Positions 2,472-34,249 of a stretch of DNA of 34,249 nucleotides are shown here, piece by piece; within the stretch, counting starts at the first letter, position 1; every line of letters starts with the position of its first letter. Source of the stretch: a virus. Where the stretch lies: the IMG/VR virus record IMGVR_UViG_3300011113_000012, positions 1 to 34,249 of that record. One strand, written 5' to 3'. The translations under genes and the position numbers were made by a program. The notes below the pieces were generated by a model. The model searched no databases. It saw only the letters and a list, made by a program, of their open reading frames with translations, and was not told the origin of the DNA.

Positions 2472-2692
2472 GCTTGTCCCCTTGCTCTGATTCGTTCAGC
2501 AATGCTTTGTGAAGGGTGAGGCCAACCCACCGCCCACTCGTCTGCGATCTTGGCACAAGCCTCGCGCTCTTTCTCTGCTACCAGTTTTGCAAAGGCTAAA
2601 ACAAAATCTTTTGGTATTTTTATATTTGGAATATCTTGCACAGTTTTGTTCCATGCTTGACTAGCCAGTTCAATAATTTCATCTTGGGTCAC
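2468..2692 (-). CDS. Small hypothetical protein (74 aa), GTG start
   Basis: The preferred start is GTG at 2692. It overlaps the TGA of the winged-helix gene and has a GAGGG Shine-Dalgarno 8-9 nt upstream; the longer frame back to 2725 would overlap that gene by 37 nt with no benefit. The product begins MTQDEIIELASQAW and contains KEREACAKIADEWAVG and a terminal IRARG. This layout is common in small phage proteins next to recombination genes. Biochemical role unknown. Confidence 0.72.
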   Translation of the reverse strand: MTQDEIIELASQAWNKTVQDIPNIKIPKDFVLAFAKLVAEKEREACAKIADEWAVGWPHPSQSIAERIRARGQA

Positions 2693-3000
2693 AGCAATTC
2701 CCTCTGAATTGGGGTTATCTTCCACTCGCGTTCTAAGCGGTTAGATTTTGACTTAACCACATTCCCCGTCAAGCAGATTTCCCCCTCTCTCTCCAACTCA
2801 TGCAACCGCCTAGCGACTTGCATGGACTCCAGACCAGTATGGTGAGCAATACCATCTTTACCCAAACTTCCGTGGTCTTTGAGGCATTGGATGATTTTGG
2901 TGGCGTGGGCTTTGGCGAGGTCTTTGGCAGACCCCGCAGCCACCCAACTTGTCATTGGGTCGCTATTTCTTACTCTTGGGTGATCAAAACTGTATGTCAT
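2689..3000 (-). CDS. Winged-helix DNA-binding protein (103 aa)
   Basis: The ATG at 3000 is preferred over the one at 3063: it leaves a 17-nt overlap with the upstream gene, and the longer form adds an unlike basic segment. Residues about 35-80 read as a winged helix: ATKIIQCLKDHGSLGKDGIA, then the recognition-type helix SMQVARRLHELEREGEI and a wing (CLTGNVVKSKS). It is likely a sequence-specific DNA-binding protein that regulates phage or host promoters, or an accessory to replication or recombination. Other members of this broad phage group are uncharacterised. Confidence 0.7.
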   Translation of the reverse strand: MTYSFDHPRVRNSDPMTSWVAAGSAKDLAKAHATKIIQCLKDHGSLGKDGIAHHTGLESMQVARRLHELEREGEICLTGNVVKSKSNRLEREWKITPIQRELL

Positions 3001-3238
3001 CAAAAGAATCCTTAGATTCAGAGGTTTTAGGCTTTTTCTCATAGCAACGAAACCACCCGTCATATTCTTTGGATATGGGCATTGAATCCATTTTTACTTT
3101 AAATGTAAATTTTTGCAGATCAGTACCCTCGGGGCATTCCACAAACAATGTGCCGTGTTCAGCCCAAAAGGTTTTTTCTTCACCAGTAGCGGTTGTGTAG
3201 TTACGGGCAGGAAATTTAATTTCGTAAGATTTTTTCAT
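2984..3238 (-). CDS. Possible single-stranded-DNA-binding-like protein with SSB-type acidic tip (84 aa)
   Basis: The first ~68 residues alternate polar and hydrophobic residues with many aromatics (YEIKFPARNYTTATGEEKTF, YDGWFRCYEKK), which suits a small beta-barrel. The last ten residues are acidic and end DSFDDIQF, closely resembling the DDDIPF tip by which bacterial SSB recruits partner proteins. The gene sits directly after the YqaJ exonuclease and Erf annealase genes and is coupled to the former by ATGA. An SSB-like or SSB-mimic role is inferred from tip plus context. No OB-fold signature is proven. Confidence 0.5.
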   Translation of the reverse strand: MKKSYEIKFPARNYTTATGEEKTFWAEHGTLFVECPEGTDLQKFTFKVKMDSMPISKEYDGWFRCYEKKPKTSESKDSFDDIQF

Positions 3239-3864
3239 TTAATTGCTTTCAGATTAGTTAACTTGTTCACTTTGTCATCCAACTCCGCTAGGAACTGGAT
3301 AACCTCTTTCTCCAACATTGCTACATACTCAGGGTCAAACTCAACCCTTTTGACAAACAATTGAAGTTCTTGGGGTAGACGAGGGTCAAATGACACAAAC
3401 TCGCACCATTGGCGTTCACAGCACCGCATCTGCCATTGCATTTGGGTGATGTATTTGCCTGGCACAGTCTGGCTCAACAGCGTGTCAATGTGGGTGGCTG
3501 TGTTGGGGCACTTGATCTCCAACATACCGAAAAGCCCCACCAACCCGTCAGGAGACGCGCCAGACATTTCAATTGTCGGATGGGGTACAAACCCCACTTC
3601 CTCAACCATTACATCCGCATAAGCCTCAAAAGCCGATCTAGCCAAAGGCTCGGTCTCCGTTCCCCAAGTCATAGCTGCATTGGTAAACGAGTCACCTTGT
3701 TGACCAGTAAGCCGTTCACAGATCAATTGCGCCATGTAGTTGTCCCGACTAGCGGAGTAACCTGATTTGGTCTTGGCGATTACATCTGCCACCCGACTAG
3801 CGGTAACTCGACCGAGCCTGGCCTCAAACCATGCGCTCGACCTCTGTTCTATTTGTTCAGTCAT
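3235..3864 (-). CDS. YqaJ/lambda-Exo-like recombination exonuclease
   Basis: This 209-aa enzyme of the PD-(D/E)XK superfamily (YqaJ viral recombinase family) should resect linear double-stranded DNA and supply 3' single strands to the annealase. Visible features are the N-terminal QRSSAWFEARLGRVTASRV, the glutamate-containing MTWGTETEPLARSAFE, and the catalytic core SPDG (Asp106) followed by LEIKCP (Glu116, Lys118). Length and motif order are normal for the family. It is coupled to the Erf gene upstream and to the SSB-like gene downstream, a complete phage recombination cluster. Confidence 0.92.
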   Translation of the reverse strand: MTEQIEQRSSAWFEARLGRVTASRVADVIAKTKSGYSASRDNYMAQLICERLTGQQGDSFTNAAMTWGTETEPLARSAFEAYADVMVEEVGFVPHPTIEMSGASPDGLVGLFGMLEIKCPNTATHIDTLLSQTVPGKYITQMQWQMRCCERQWCEFVSFDPRLPQELQLFVKRVEFDPEYVAMLEKEVIQFLAELDDKVNKLTNLKAIK

Positions 3865-4415
3865 TTCAATTTCCTTTTCATTAAATCTTTAGCACCAGTA
3901 ACAGCCTCAAGCCATTCCTTATCCGTACCCGCAGACTTATAAGCCTCTTTAAAGCGCGTCTGGAGTTCCTCTAGCGTGGTGGACTCGCTAATTGAGGTGA
4001 TGTGGTCTTGCATCTGGTTGTGGTTAGCCTTTTGTTCTTTTGGCTTTGTAGCCGCGTTTCCGTCATCATCCTCTGGGGCTTGCGATGTGGCGGCCATCAA
4101 AGACGCACGACGAATGTAGGTCAAACACGACATAAACCCTTGGGGGTCGTGTTTAGGCGATGGAAAGAACAGTTTTCCGCAGTCGAGCCGTTCACCTGAT
4201 TCATGTAGAAAACTGGTCTCACAGATAACCCCGTCTGGGTGCTCTGTGGTTGTTTGGAATAGGAATATTCCATTGTCGTTTAAAGCCCCTATAACGCTGT
4301 CCACACAAGATGCTAGGTCAACATACTTGGAACGGAAATGAGGGTTTACAGCGTTCTTTAAAGCGGGTGCAAAGGCTTTCTGAGCCTTGACTAAAGCAGT
4401 AGCAATGTTTTTCAT
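3861..4415 (-). CDS. erf: Erf-family single-strand annealing protein
   Basis: This 184-aa protein carries the Erf signature blocks: KAFAPALKNAVNPHFRSKYVDL at about 14-34, DNGIFLFQT at 47-55, and DPQGFMSCLTYIRRASLMA followed by APEDDDGNAA. Erf proteins form rings that anneal complementary single strands. In P22, Erf circularises the terminally redundant genome. Here it precedes the YqaJ exonuclease, forming an exo/annealase pair. The C-terminal ~55 residues are helical and variable. An AGGA Shine-Dalgarno lies before the ATG. Confidence 0.9.
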   Translation of the reverse strand: MKNIATALVKAQKAFAPALKNAVNPHFRSKYVDLASCVDSVIGALNDNGIFLFQTTTEHPDGVICETSFLHESGERLDCGKLFFPSPKHDPQGFMSCLTYIRRASLMAATSQAPEDDDGNAATKPKEQKANHNQMQDHITSISESTTLEELQTRFKEAYKSAGTDKEWLEAVTGAKDLMKRKLK

Positions 4416-4831: not shown

Positions 4832-4851
4832 GGGCTTGCGCCCTATTTTTT
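4832..4851 (+). terminator. Intrinsic-terminator-like hairpin on the strand antisense to the early operon
   Basis: GGGC (4832-4835), loop TTGC, GCCC (4840-4843), then TA and TTTTTT. The T-run lies downstream only on the + strand, so it would stop rightward (antisense) transcription. On the - strand the hairpin lies between the 93-aa and 88-aa genes with an A-run before it, which is not a terminator layout. Confidence 0.5.
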
Positions 4852-5131
4852 AAGCAATGGTGGTTGGAAGAATTTGACATTGCAATTTTTTGCCGTAATT
4901 GCGTTCACAATATTCTTGAACTTCTTTATTTTTGCTAGCAATACCGCTATTAAGAAGATTGGTTTCTTTATTGAACACTTTTTGAGCAAGGTCAAAACGA
5001 GAAGCCCAACCCACTACACCCCATTGTTTACTCCACTCATACCATACAACTACGCAATGGCTGTATTTTTTAGTTTTGCTGTTGTGGGTAATAATTTCAC
5101 CATCTGGGCAAATTACAGTATGTTTGTTCAT
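4850..5131 (-). CDS. First gene of the leftward early operon, hypothetical (93 aa)
   Basis: This 93-aa protein is the first translated product from the strong leftward promoter, with AAGGAAA 5-6 nt before its ATG. It contains VICPDGEIITHNSK, a tryptophan-rich centre (VVVWYEWSKQWGVVGWASRFD), and a C-terminal charged helix (NKEVQEYCERNYGKK). There is no membrane segment. Lambda N occupies the corresponding position, but this is not an arginine-rich N-type protein. Function unknown. Confidence 0.72.
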   Translation of the reverse strand: MNKHTVICPDGEIITHNSKTKKYSHCVVVWYEWSKQWGVVGWASRFDLAQKVFNKETNLLNSGIASKNKEVQEYCERNYGKKLQCQILPTTIA

Positions 5132-5182
5132 TTGATTTCCTTAAAAGACCTTTTCGCGTGATTCGCTTACGGCATGGATAGA

Positions 5183-5210
5183 AGTATAAGCCAACTTATA
5201 ACCATGTCAA
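5183..5210 (-). promoter_or_regulatory. Strong sigma70-type leftward early promoter (pL-like)
   Basis: On the - strand the sequence reads TTGACA (5210-5205), a 16-nt spacer, then TATACT (5188-5183). The -35 is a perfect consensus and the -10 has one mismatch. Transcription should start near 5176 and read the whole leftward operon through a leader of about 45 nt. A perfect inverted repeat overlaps the -10 and spacer, so it is probably repressible. Confidence 0.82.
5185..5200. promoter_or_regulatory. Operator-like inverted repeat O1 in the leftward promoter
   Basis: TATAAG-CCAA-CTTATA is a perfect 6-4-6 inverted repeat lying between the -35 and -10 and covering most of the -10. A dimeric Cro-type repressor bound here would block the polymerase. 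A close relative occurs at 5243..5258 before cro. Confidence 0.68.
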
Positions 5211-5242
5211 CAATTATTTTGTAGGTAGTTTCCCTAGTGTTG

Positions 5243-5258
5243 TTTAAGCGCACTTATG
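5243..5258. promoter_or_regulatory. Operator-like inverted repeat O2 upstream of cro
   Basis: TTTAAG-CGCA-CTTATG has the same 6-4-6 form as O1 and shares 13 of 16 positions with it when both are read on the + strand, including the AAG and CTTAT half-site cores. It abuts TAAAAT (5259-5264), a possible -10 placed so that transcription would start at or next to the cro ATG. No good -35 or Shine-Dalgarno is seen, so cro may be leaderless. Confidence 0.58.
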
Positions 5259-5271
5259 TAAAATATCGGGC

Positions 5272-5424
5272 ATGACAAAAGAACATCTTATCCGTCTGGC
5301 AGGCTCACAGCGTGATCTTGCCGACATTCTTGGTATCAGCCAAGCTGCGGTTTCGCAATGGAAGACTGTTCCCAAGGCAAGGATGTGGCAGTTGTTAGTT
5401 CTTAAACCTGAGTGGTTTAAGTAA
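5272..5424 (+). CDS. cro: Cro-like helix-turn-helix repressor (50 aa)
   Basis: This 50-aa protein matches the small P22/lambda Cro form: SQRDLADILGISQAAVSQWK is a complete helix-turn-helix (about residues 12-31), and the end LLVLKPEWFK parallels the short C-terminal arm of Cro proteins. It should bind the nearby inverted repeats as a dimer and repress both divergent early promoters. There is no Shine-Dalgarno before the ATG. No CI-type repressor gene is present anywhere in the window, so this appears to be an orphan Cro. It is the first gene of the rightward early set. Confidence 0.85.
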   Translation: MTKEHLIRLAGSQRDLADILGISQAAVSQWKTVPKARMWQLLVLKPEWFK

Positions 5425-5434: not shown

Positions 5435-5529
5435 GGAGGCTAGGCTACCCTTAGCGGGGGAAAAGGCGATTCGTTACCGCCCTGCCATAGTTTCCTTGAG
5501 AGTAACGACAACCGAGAACGTAAGGTTAT
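5435..5529 (+). other. Untranslated leader before the replication gene, with competing stems
   Basis: This ~95-nt stretch has no convincing gene. It holds GCTA/TAGC (5439-5442/5452-5455) and two mutually exclusive stems, GGCG/CGCC (5465-5468/5478-5481) and TCGTTAC/GTAACGA (5471-5477/5502-5508). A 38-codon frame from an ATG at 5433 exists but overlaps the next gene and has no ribosome binding site. It could be a regulated leader; nothing known is recognised. Confidence 0.35.
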
Positions 5530-6294
5530 ATGCACTACTACCAGTTTAATATTGGTGACTACAAGAGTCACACAGAGCATCTTTCCGAGATGGAAGATTT
5601 GACTTACAGGCGTTTGCTTGATTGGTACTATCTTCACGAAACCCCCATACCCCTTGATTTAACTGAAACTGCTAGGCAGATTCGTATGCGTTCGCATAGC
5701 GATTGCATTGCGTCTGTATTGCAAGAGTATTTCGAGCGCACAGATGATGGATGGGTAAATCATAGAGCCGACAAGGAAATAGCCAAGGTTGGGGACAAGT
5801 CTGAGAAGGCATCTGCTAGTGCCAAAGCCCGATGGAATAAGGCTAAAGATGCGAACGCATTGCCAACGCAATACGAAGGCAATGCTACACATAACACAAG
5901 ACACATAACCCAAGACACAGAACACATTATTAAAGAAGGTAAACCTTCTTTGTCGGGAACTGCGTTCCCACCTTGTCCACATACCGAGTTATTAAAACTT
6001 TGGGGAAAGCATTTAAGCCATTTAACTCAACCAAGAACATGGGAAGGGTCGCGCCAAGCCAACATGAGGCAAAGATGGGTGCAAGCTGCTAAACCCTCTG
6101 CATACTCGCCAGAGGGCTACAAAACAACCGAGGAAGGGCTGAAGTGGTGGGATTCGTTCTTTGGCTACATTGCCAACGACACTTCCTTGGCTAACGGGTT
6201 TGAGACCAAGGGCAGAACTTGGAGACCAGACTTAGAGTGGGTGGTTAACGCCACTAATTTTCAAAAAATCATTGATGGAAAGTATGCAAAATGA
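5530..6294 (+). CDS. DUF1376-type replication protein (254 aa)
   Basis: The N-terminal ~90 residues fit the DUF1376 (YdaU) domain: YYQFNIGDYKSHTEHLSEME, then DLTYRRLLDWYYLHETPIP and an LTETARQIRM helix. These proteins occupy the replication-initiator slot in many lambdoid phages. A low-complexity linker (KASASAKARWNKAKDAN) follows, then a C-terminal part resembling phage O-type C-termini (WDSFFGYIANDTSL, LEWVVNATNFQKIIDGKY), probably for helicase-loader contacts. It lies directly downstream of cro, as O does in lambda. Any origin inside the gene is not obvious by eye. Confidence 0.78.
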   Translation: MHYYQFNIGDYKSHTEHLSEMEDLTYRRLLDWYYLHETPIPLDLTETARQIRMRSHSDCIASVLQEYFERTDDGWVNHRADKEIAKVGDKSEKASASAKARWNKAKDANALPTQYEGNATHNTRHITQDTEHIIKEGKPSLSGTAFPPCPHTELLKLWGKHLSHLTQPRTWEGSRQANMRQRWVQAAKPSAYSPEGYKTTEEGLKWWDSFFGYIANDTSLANGFETKGRTWRPDLEWVVNATNFQKIIDGKYAK

Positions 6295-9005: not shown

Positions 9006-9245
9006 ACACGCATGGAGATTTGGGTAGTCTTGAGGCCCTTTCGAGCGACTTGAGTCTCCAGCCGTGTTGGTATTACGAAATGTGGGTTAGCGCCATATCT
9101 TCCTCGTTTTGTGCAAATACAAAGGAAGTCAGACAATACTGCTTTATGTAAGCGTAATATCAACACCCACACGCATGGGGATTTTGTCCCTAGCCGTGTT
9201 GGTGTAAAGCAGTTGCCGACATTTGGGGGTTCGCCCCCTTTTTTT
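9006..9245 (+). ncRNA. Structured RNA gene (or late leader RNA) with two copies of one hairpin motif
   Basis: No credible ORF spans 9002..9255. Hairpin A (9005-9068) pairs AACACG with CGTGTT, then has a CA/GC internal loop, then a 12-bp helix from TGGAGA to TCTCCA. Hairpin B (9163-9205) pairs ACACC-C-ACACG with CGTGT-T-GGTGT, has the same CA/GC loop, then TGGGGA with TCCCTA. Upper-stem pairs differ but stay complementary (A9016-T9057 against G9179-C9189). ACTGCTTTA (9138-9146) pairs with TAAAGCAGT (9205-9213), and CTTCCT with AGGAAG (9099-9104/9123-9128). A strong terminator ends it. It occupies the place of the lambda pR' 6S leader, so it may be a late-operon antitermination leader or a trans-acting RNA. 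No known class recognised. Confidence 0.72.
9225..9245 (+). terminator. Strong intrinsic terminator of the structured RNA
   Basis: GGGGG (9225-9229), a TTCG tetraloop, CCCCC (9234-9238) and seven T residues (9239-9245) make a textbook intrinsic terminator. It lies 10 nt before the next gene's ATG, so late expression must pass or bypass it. Confidence 0.9.
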
Positions 9246-9255
9246 AAGGATATAT

Positions 9256-9624
9256 ATGGCTTACGAAAACCAAAAAGATGTTGCAGACTTCATAAGCACA
9301 TTACTCCACTCGGGAACTGTTACCCACTTCATGCACCTCTCAACCGATTCCTTTGCTGTTCACATGGCATTGGGTGGGTACTACACAGAAATCATTGAAT
9401 TAACAGATTCGTTTGCAGAAGCCTACTCAGGGTGCTACGAAAAGATTAAGAACTTCCCAGAGAACTTCCATAACGCTAAAGAGCCTGTGAAGTATTTGGA
9501 AAGCATTTCCGAGTATGTCAAAAAGAATCGTAAGGCGATGCCAGACGAGAGCCAATTGCAAAACATCATTGACGAGATAGCAGCTTTAATTGATTCGACC
9601 TTGTATAAACTGACACTCAAATGA
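9256..9624 (+). CDS. DUF5856-like protein (122 aa)
   Basis: The start is ATG 9256 with AAGGA a few nt before it; an upstream GTG in frame lies inside the terminator and is rejected. The protein is helical: VADFISTLLHSGTVTHFMHL, AVHMALGGYYTEIIELTDSF, then AEAYSGCYEKI. Histidines and acids are spaced as in a small four-helix, ferritin/Dps-like bundle (the DUF5856 group of phage proteins). Role in infection is unknown. It is the first gene after the RNA terminator and overlaps the next gene by 4 nt. Confidence 0.68.
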   Translation: MAYENQKDVADFISTLLHSGTVTHFMHLSTDSFAVHMALGGYYTEIIELTDSFAEAYSGCYEKIKNFPENFHNAKEPVKYLESISEYVKKNRKAMPDESQLQNIIDEIAALIDSTLYKLTLK

Positions 9625-32949: not shown

Positions 32950-33361
32950 AGTTCGCGTTTGGGCTTCCGTAGTCCTGATCGTGACTGTCATCCTTGCGGG
33001 TATTGTGATCTTTATGCTTTACAGCCTGGCATTTGTTGTTCAGCCTATTAAAAGCATGGCCCCGATTGACCAATCGTTTGCCAAGATGCTTAACGACATT
33101 GTGTTATTGATCGTTGGCGGTATCGGTGGGGTAATGTCTCGCAAGGGTGTCCAAGCGGTTGCTGACAAGGTTTCACCACCGCCTACTACCCCAATTACCA
33201 ATTTGCCACAAGTTACAACGGCTCTTTATTCGGGGGCATTGCCAACATTTGTAAACCCTCCGCTAGACGAGGAATGGAGAGCACCCCCACCACCTACTAC
33301 ACCGCCTGACTTCTTGCACCCAGAGCGCGAGGAAATCGCTAAAGAACGGGCACTCAAATGA
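32894..33361 (+). CDS. Two-TM holin-like protein (155 aa), TTG start
   Basis: TTG at 32894 is supported by GGAG 7 nt upstream. A short cytoplasmic N-terminus (RLLTQEEIEVRVW) is followed by a membrane segment (about 24-49, VVLIVTVILAGIVIFMLYSL), a linker with SMAPIDQSFAKMLNDIV, a second segment (about 67-82, IVLLIVGGIGGVMS), and a proline-rich soluble tail. Its place directly before Rz/Rz1/endolysin makes it the best holin candidate. The C-terminal part is repeated at window start. Confidence 0.66.
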   Translation: MSNPPKFHPNRLLTQEEIEVRVWASVVLIVTVILAGIVIFMLYSLAFVVQPIKSMAPIDQSFAKMLNDIVLLIVGGIGGVMSRKGVQAVADKVSPPPTTPITNLPQVTTALYSGALPTFVNPPLDEEWRAPPPPTTPPDFLHPEREEIAKERALK

Positions 33362-33816
33362 ATCCGTGGCTCATCATTGGGGCTTTGGTGGCTCTCGGTA
33401 GTTTCTATTCCTATGGACACCATAAAGGTTGGGTAGAGCGAGACGCTGAGATGCAGTCCGAGATCGCCCAAAAGAACGAAGAGGCTCGGGCTAAAGAGCA
33501 AGAACTAACAAAACAGTTAAACGACAACTCCACTAAGTTACAGGAGGCAAACAATGCCATATCTGAAAAGCAGACTTCTCTTGATCGCGCTATTAGGGCT
33601 GGTAGCCTGCGCCTCAAAACCACCGAGCGTTGTATACAACCCACCGAAAATACCCCCGTTGCCAACGGAAATAGCAACCAAGAGGGAAGTGAATCTGACA
33701 GACAGACTCTTGCAGCTATTGCAGAAATCATCGCCCAAGGGGACAGAAACACCGCCCAACTCAACGCCTGCATCTCAGCCTACGAAGCCGTAAGGAGTCA
33801 AGTCAATGGTAAATAG
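33358..33816 (+). CDS. Rz: Rz-like i-spanin, second haplotype (152 aa)
   Basis: Same gene as at 209..664, one codon longer. Residues 1-87 are nearly identical (a V/A change near residue 45). Residues 88-105 differ strongly (TERCIQPTENTPVANGN here, TSCVQTSSSPTSTNGN there), and QLNA replaces QLNQ near the end. The membrane anchor and charged helix are intact, so both versions look functional. The ATGA overlap with the two-TM gene is kept. Confidence 0.87.
   Translation: MNPWLIIGALVALGSFYSYGHHKGWVERDAEMQSEIAQKNEEARAKEQELTKQLNDNSTKLQEANNAISEKQTSLDRAIRAGSLRLKTTERCIQPTENTPVANGNSNQEGSESDRQTLAAIAEIIAQGDRNTAQLNACISAYEAVRSQVNGK
33554..33793 (+). CDS. Rz1: Rz1-like o-spanin lipoprotein, second haplotype (79 aa)
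   Basis: Nested in Rz as in the left copy. The signal peptide and lipobox (LLLIALLGLVAC) are unchanged. The proline-rich linker after the lipid anchor differs (PPSVVYNPPKIPPLPTE here, PQVAYKPVQVPPLPTE there), and the rest is almost the same. Both frames remain open through the diverged block, which is strong evidence that both spanins are selected in both haplotypes. Confidence 0.87.
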   Translation: MPYLKSRLLLIALLGLVACASKPPSVVYNPPKIPPLPTEIATKREVNLTDRLLQLLQKSSPKGTETPPNSTPASQPTKP

Positions 33817-34249
33817 CGACCAACTCCAAAAACTGCACATTGACCCTAGTTTGGTTCAAGTGCTAAACGACACCTTTCAGAAGTGGGGGATTTCCACTCC
33901 TAGACAACAAGCCGCCTTTATCGCCCAATGTGGGCATGAGTGTGGCAAGTTCAAAATCTTGGAAGAAAACCTCAACTACGCAGCAGATCGGTTGATGAAG
34001 ATATGGCCAAAACGATTTCCCACTTTGGAGTCTGCACAGCCCTACCACCGAAATCCCAAAGCCATAGCAAACAAGGTTTACGCCTCACGCATGGGAAACA
34101 GGGACGAGGCTAGTGGGGATGGATGGCGTTTCCGAGGCTCTGGGTGGTTACAGTTAACGGGACACGATAATTTCTTTCACGCAGGCAAAGCGTGTGGGGT
34201 GGACTTTGTGATGAATCCTGACCTAGTAAGAACGCCTCAGTACGCGGCT
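33806..34249 (+). CDS. Endolysin, second haplotype, cut by window end
   Basis: The first 148 codons of the GH19-type endolysin described at 654..1247. All visible base differences from the left copy are silent (for example tttcaaaag/tttcagaag, atcgcgcaa/atcgcccaa, cgattcccc/cgatttccc). The catalytic Glu45 region and GWRFRGSGWLQLTG are unchanged. Confidence 0.88.
   Translation, partial: MVNSDQLQKLHIDPSLVQVLNDTFQKWGISTPRQQAAFIAQCGHECGKFKILEENLNYAADRLMKIWPKRFPTLESAQPYHRNPKAIANKVYASRMGNRDEASGDGWRFRGSGWLQLTGHDNFFHAGKACGVDFVMNPDLVRTPQYAA

Follow-up and report, generated by a model that had tools for sequence, protein, structure and literature searches.

The window, by which we mean the whole 34,249-base virus record IMGVR_UViG_3300011113_000012, carries a compact early control region between two divergent gene arms (Table 1). 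The leftward arm contains an ERF annealing protein and a YqaJ-type exonuclease, whereas the right arm, on the plus strand, contains cro and the genes of an O-like DUF1376 protein, RusA, and NinB. The gap separating cro from the left ERF/YqaJ operon measures 140 bp (5132–5271). Such an arrangement corresponds to the lambda operon order recognized in the first-pass annotation. The late and lysis genes, including spanin, endolysin, terminase, portal, major head protein, and tail genes, are also located in the window, and a near-identity DNA search against named phages returned no match. The record had been regarded as a circle, and its ends (1–1097 and 33155–34249) do overlap by 1.1 kb; however, the overlap is inexact, at 95.4% identity, and the unique sequence amounts to approximately 33.15 kb. 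Ends that overlap in this way, rather than exactly, suggest that two close strains were probably merged in the contig. Two further proteins were observed outside the control region: the protein at 9223–9624, situated at the early-to-late junction, matches phrog_858, named "starvation-inducible transcriptional regulator", and the protein at 1341–1967 on the minus strand, in the far left operon, is covered along almost its entire length by a match to phrog_3704 (labelled ferredoxin).

Table 1. Features of the early control region and the adjoining genes in the window.
Feature	Position	Strand	Remarks
YqaJ-type exonuclease	3235–3864	−	PF09588; phrog_149; pL operon
ERF single-strand annealing protein	3861–4415	−	PF04404; phrog_2324; pL operon
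First pL-operon gene	4850–5131	−	93 aa; no family; unrelated ORFs in its place in most relatives
pL-like promoter	5183–5210	−	TTGACA (5210–5205), 16-nt spacer, TATACT (5188–5183)
OL dyad	5186–5199		ATAAG-CCAA-CTTAT; overlaps pL −10 and spacer
Central dyad	5222–5236		TAGGTAGTTTCCCTA; family consensus TAGGG-N5-CCCTA; centre ~43 nt upstream of cro ATG
OR dyad	5244–5257		TTAAG-CGCA-CTTAT; immediately upstream of pR −10
pR −10	5259–5264	+	TAAAAT; 7 nt before cro ATG
cro	5272–5424	+	50 aa; P22-type Cro; PF14549; phrog_409; PDB 1rzs
Divergent int-alpA RNA (RF02996) with pseudoknot	5437–5534	+	Between cro and O-like gene, up to its start codon
O-like replication/primosomal gene (DUF1376)	5530–6294	+	Second in pR operon; PF07120; phrog_6451, phrog_345

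The pL-like promoter agrees with the consensus at 11 of 12 positions and is the only match to TTGACA-N15–19-TATA[AC]T on either strand of the window. Its −35 element is situated 62 bp from the cro ATG, so that both the near-consensus promoter and the spacing of about 60 bp claimed in the first-pass annotation are borne out. OL and OR, which that annotation missed, are 16-nt direct repeats, GTATAAGCCAACTTAT and GTTTAAGCGCACTTAT, at a spacing of 58 bp; each repeat carries the dyad WTAAGN4CTTAW, one in pL and the other in pR. In the 34 kb, this dyad occurs at three sites, compared with a mean of 0.11 in shuffled sequences; two of the three are located in the gap between cro and pL, and the third (7431) lies within a coding gene. 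The operator core AAGN4CTT is common to P22, whose record reads TTAAGACTTCTTAA and ATTTAAGTGTTCTTTAAT. Divergent early promoters, shared operators, and cro as the first rightward gene are thus all present, as in a lambdoid control region. At pR, no −35 element is recognizable.

The Cro protein matches PF14549 (P22_Cro) with 43.5 bits (cut-off 30.2), and matches P22 Cro (1rzs) by sequence with an E-value of 3e-5. The AlphaFold2 model, with a pLDDT of 93.8, contains five helices in an all-alpha Cro fold, and the closest PDB folds are P22 Cro 1rzs and then N15 Cro, with a TM-score of about 0.8 by query length; the short length of the protein keeps the Foldseek E-values weak. The recognition helix SQAAVSQWK closely resembles SDAAVSQWK in P22. 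The earlier assignment to the P22/lambda type therefore holds. The dN/dS of cro has a median of 0.18 among 2,118 usable pairs, and 98.5% of the values fall below 0.5, a signature indicating that the gene is under purifying selection and is kept rather than decaying. That this small helix-turn-helix protein is no working Cro, but a remnant in decay or a toxin/antitoxin-type regulator resembling YdaS, is very improbable. PF15943 (YdaS_toxin) is indeed the second Pfam match, slightly below its cut-off, but P22_Cro exceeds it by 14.7 bits, and P22 and N15 Cro match the fold far better than YdaS. Furthermore, the strength of the purifying selection and the presence of operators in both early promoters argue against either version.

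With the window Cro as a query, 78 IMG/VR loci were recovered, and an alignment search found at least 548 IMG/VR stretches encoding relatives of this protein, of which 80 were retained. The comparison set consists of 93 distinct upstream regions, including that of the window; the records are often fragments, and exact end repeats exist in only six of the fetched relatives. The upstream gaps are mostly 110–180 bp long. An operator dyad matching at 8/10 positions or better is found in 89 of the 93 regions, compared with 15.6 in shuffles, and the best pL-side match reaches at least 9/12 in 87. In the commoner layout, counted from the cro ATG, OL starts at approximately −86, the central dyad at −50, and OR at −28. 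In the alternative layout, the central dyad is missing and the starts of OL and OR are separated by 37 bp. The half-sites vary with the recognition helix, IHQSAVSQ accompanying ATCAG or ATTAG and ISTQAISR accompanying TTAAT, in few independent cases. Cro helices were reportedly correlated with operators by Hall et al. in 2005. The gene adjacent to pL differs in most relatives while the promoter and the operator stay, and this exchange points to a recombination hotspot bordering the operator region.

The paired operators, together with the purifying selection on cro, support a Cro that represses both early promoters; the binding of Cro to the dyads and the resulting repression are what we infer from the arrangement of the sites. 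Several relatives possess a clear OL but a degenerate OR or none, and Cro autoregulation may consequently be weak there. The first-pass annotation had described Cro as a timing repressor. The operators and the selection favour the repressor part of this description, whereas the timing role is suggested by operator position and by analogy.

The pR −10 element ends 6–7 nt upstream of the ATG in 87 of the 93 regions. Simultaneously, a Shine–Dalgarno four-mer is found at none of the 93 cro genes, compared with 21 of 33 other genes in the window. A leaderless cro mRNA is predicted from these positions, with a precedent in the telomere phage PY54, where RACE showed the cro mRNA to lack a leader (PMC4488713). 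Between OL and OR, the central dyad is present in 60 of the 93 regions at a mostly constant position, with 67 sites compared with 5.5 in shuffles, and is placed where an activator could replace the −35 of pR. The same dyad, at a pR without a −35, would offer a place for a second repressor, and hence for cryptic lysogeny or a carrier state maintained by a host factor or by a non-canonical repressor such as the winged-helix protein at 2689–3063 (minus strand), the sole other helix-turn-helix candidate in the window. We consider such a state improbable. No phage gene family convincingly tracks the central dyad between 7 genomes with it and 14 without it. A host regulon was rejected, as 60 genomes from the family of the Comamonadaceae MAG carrying a relative contain only three sites in total, without enrichment. 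Integrase, resolvase, and S24 proteins, which also bear on this possibility, were not found in the searches described below, and no partition gene was noted among the PHROG matches of the window.

The PHROGs scan of the main window ORFs revealed no integrase, excisionase, or CI-like protein, and the Pfam search of the window revealed no integrase, S24, or resolvase domain, in agreement with the original claim that cI and integrase are absent from the window. The first-pass annotation had also proposed a search for cI in the gaps of relatives, and had pointed to a repressor elsewhere in the genome and to integrating relatives as the findings that would speak against it; all three were sought. 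No cI lies between pL and cro in any of the 93 distinct regions. Neither a tyrosine integrase nor Peptidase_S24 was found in 59 virus records, comprising the window, 13 related records, and 45 further records, so that no CI-type repressor was found in the window or the 58 related records; the two matches in the searches of the further records proved to be bacterial MAG genomes. In a spot check, the repressor and integrase loci fetched from these two MAG genomes share no sequence with the cro contigs. Among 14 records, the HTH_3 search matched Cro itself only, and no serine resolvase or serine integrase was detected. A repressor of a non-canonical, unknown type would escape these searches.

When 84,980 genomes of bacteria and archaea were scanned, no relative turned up in an integrated state. 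The same scan yielded three MAG contigs of 8.8–16.8 kb with a Cro of at least 54% identity over the full length; these contigs also bear early genes of this phage group and look like binned phage fragments. Chromosomal Cro-like matches of the Roseomonas type were rejected as integrated relatives because they are too distant, mostly at 36–54% identity. Matches in this range recur in Roseomonas and related Acetobacteraceae (L096–L165), frequently on contigs of large size, which suggests an element conserved in these bacteria.

The control region resembles the P22 and lambda immunity regions in its P22-type Cro, its two divergent promoters, pL and pR, whose shared operators have an AAGN4CTT core, and its recombination genes on the left and replication genes on the right. 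Unlike those regions, cI, rex, cII, and integrase were not found in the window, no N-like gene was recognized, each promoter possesses a single operator, the distance between OL and OR is only 58 bp, pR lacks a −35 element, and cro is predicted to be leaderless. In lambda, efficient lytic growth requires Cro, which exerts partial repression on both pL and pR (PMC2327240). PY54 immB resembles the window in its leaderless cro mRNA and few operators, but PY54 is temperate with CI, and its Cro binds at one site only and is believed not to shut down its own production (PMC4488713). A cro-like gene unaccompanied by an annotated CI has been seen before, the closest precedent being the virulent Streptococcus thermophilus phage DT1 (Moineauvirus), in which a cro-like gene lies upstream of replication genes with no annotated CI, as here. 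DT1 differs from the window in its Gram-positive host and its unrelated sequences, and in the DT1 stretch examined all genes lie on one strand, with no divergent pL recombination operon. The cro–ori region of DT1 was reportedly described by Lamothe et al. (2005), a study to which PMC3952083 and PMC6356513 refer.

The CI-less layout recurs with a second Cro family that is unrelated in sequence and is represented by ctXG6705 (MW202481, from Manatee Spring) and by 49 loci in IMG/VR. As in the window, ctXG6705 carries ERF and exonuclease genes leftward and an annotated cro with replication genes rightward, with no annotated cI or integrase, and its exonuclease is 56% identical to that of the window; across the family, the adjoining exonuclease is 53–58% identical. 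Integrase and S24 are absent from ten records of this family. In contrast to the window, pR in this family possesses a TTGACA element and cro possesses a Shine–Dalgarno sequence. Pseudanabaena phage Pam1 contains the same exonuclease module together with CI, Cro, CII, and integrase, and ct7QV12 contains it with a dicA-like repressor, cro, and integrase.

These comparisons bear directly on whether CI was ever present. It is conceivable, if rather unlikely, that the group never had CI, with Cro and its operators acquired alone or representing an ancestral one-repressor circuit. Such an origin would accord with the lack of any relative with cI in the gap among the 93 distinct regions and with the shared layout of two unrelated Cro families. 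It would also accord with the early cassette moving as a unit: in 21 long genomes, the ERF–exonuclease–cro–O cassette lies beside diverged or unrelated terminase and capsid modules. However, the PF14549-like matches in named phages are largely cro genes of temperate phages, including P22, CUS-3 (cI beside cro), and mEp235; the exonuclease module is accompanied by a full lysogeny switch in Pam1 and ct7QV12; and one operator at each divergent promoter is the expected remnant of an OL–OR deletion. It is therefore likely that the region derives from one in which CI was present. The most economical interpretation is that CI was lost more than once, in separate lineages, but no intermediate was found. 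Of the earlier view that this is a lytic phage that lost its lysogeny switch, the lack of a CI-type repressor and integrase in the 59 records stands, and the loss itself is what we infer.

Downstream of cro, most relatives possess a structured element before the next gene, at a position that we take to correspond to nutR in lambda. In the window, this element matches RF02996 over its full length with 32.7 bits, below the gathering score of 35.8, with an E-value of 1.7e-5 over 161 nt, a match that surfaced only with a small search space; at the gathering threshold, Rfam returned nothing for the window and 12 relatives. The gathering score is exceeded in two relatives (G016, 41.3; G001, 36.1). 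At an E-value of 0.001, 12 of 18 records match, compared with none of 14 control genomes. The CUAG, CGAAAAG, and CCUG elements are common to the window RNA and int-alpA RNA. Unlike RF02996, the RNA here occurs in integrase-free phages, where it separates cro from a replication gene, and contains a covarying pseudoknot, and most copies in the phage group score below the RF02996 cut-off. No int-alpA RNA was found in four records of the second Cro family.

The structure of the RNA was assessed on 45 sequences, in which 87% of the cells are paired, compared with at most 52% in slid controls, and 156 double-change cells occur, compared with 54.6 in shuffles; one of the 45 sequences served as the basis for drawing the structure, which biases these values in its favour. 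The covarying structure includes the pseudoknot, formed by the P3 loop with the strand preceding the next gene. Model R1, built with the window sequence included, scores 55.4 bits in the window, with no second copy. Minimum free energy folding of the window RNA by itself is no better than shuffles (z −0.50), and hence the case for the RNA rests on covariation. Furthermore, the P3 loop tends to complement a second copy nearer the start codon, with at least 5 bp in 66% of cases compared with 24% with shuffled loops, the pseudoknot and the ribosome site being divided by a crude 20-nt boundary that booked some pairings on the wrong side. As the loop complements both strands in many relatives, the RNA may act as a translational switch for the gene that follows it; from the position corresponding to nutR, an action in antitermination is the rival idea. 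Two other elements were observed after cro. In L007, L047, L052, L069, L072, and L188, a different structured-looking element (CGCUUGGCGG...CCGCCAAC...AGCCCUUUUUUU), ending with a terminator-like U run, replaces the int-alpA-like RNA. In the relatives L013, L016, L022, L035, L043, L045, and L184, a third recurring element (GCGUCUAGAGUGGCAUUUAGACG...GUGUGGUCUUGU) is preceded by a TATAAT-like sequence.

A two-layer switch without CI can be proposed tentatively, at somewhat less than even odds. In such a switch, Cro would act on the early transcription of both operons, and the RNA of the int-alpA family would act on translation of the replication gene. Pairing of the P3 loop with the pseudoknot strand would leave the ribosome site free, whereas pairing with the complementary copy at the ribosome-binding region would block it. 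If true, this would give the int-alpA RNA a testable role.

Taken together, the window is best explained, with a probability of roughly three in four, by a lytic phage of freshwater whose lambdoid early control region operates without CI, Cro repressing its own promoter pR as well as lowering pL. After infection, both pL, serving the recombination operon, and pR, serving cro and then the replication genes, would fire. Cro, translated from the predicted leaderless mRNA, would accumulate as a small repressor and occupy OL and OR, lowering early transcription, its own included, by steric exclusion. With no CI, CII, or integrase found, a recognizable lysogenic branch would be missing, and Cro would serve purely as an autoregulatory brake or timer.

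In lambda, Cro acts against CI and CII and also on early transcription, and the selection on Cro is consequently hard to separate there. In the present group, Cro and its operators are kept where neither CI nor integrase was found, which argues that the turn-down of early genes is sufficient to retain Cro and suggests that even a strictly lytic virus benefits from such a brake by itself. This large and abundant group of freshwater phages therefore offers a natural CI-free lambdoid circuit, with variants in operator number, spacing, and recognition helix.
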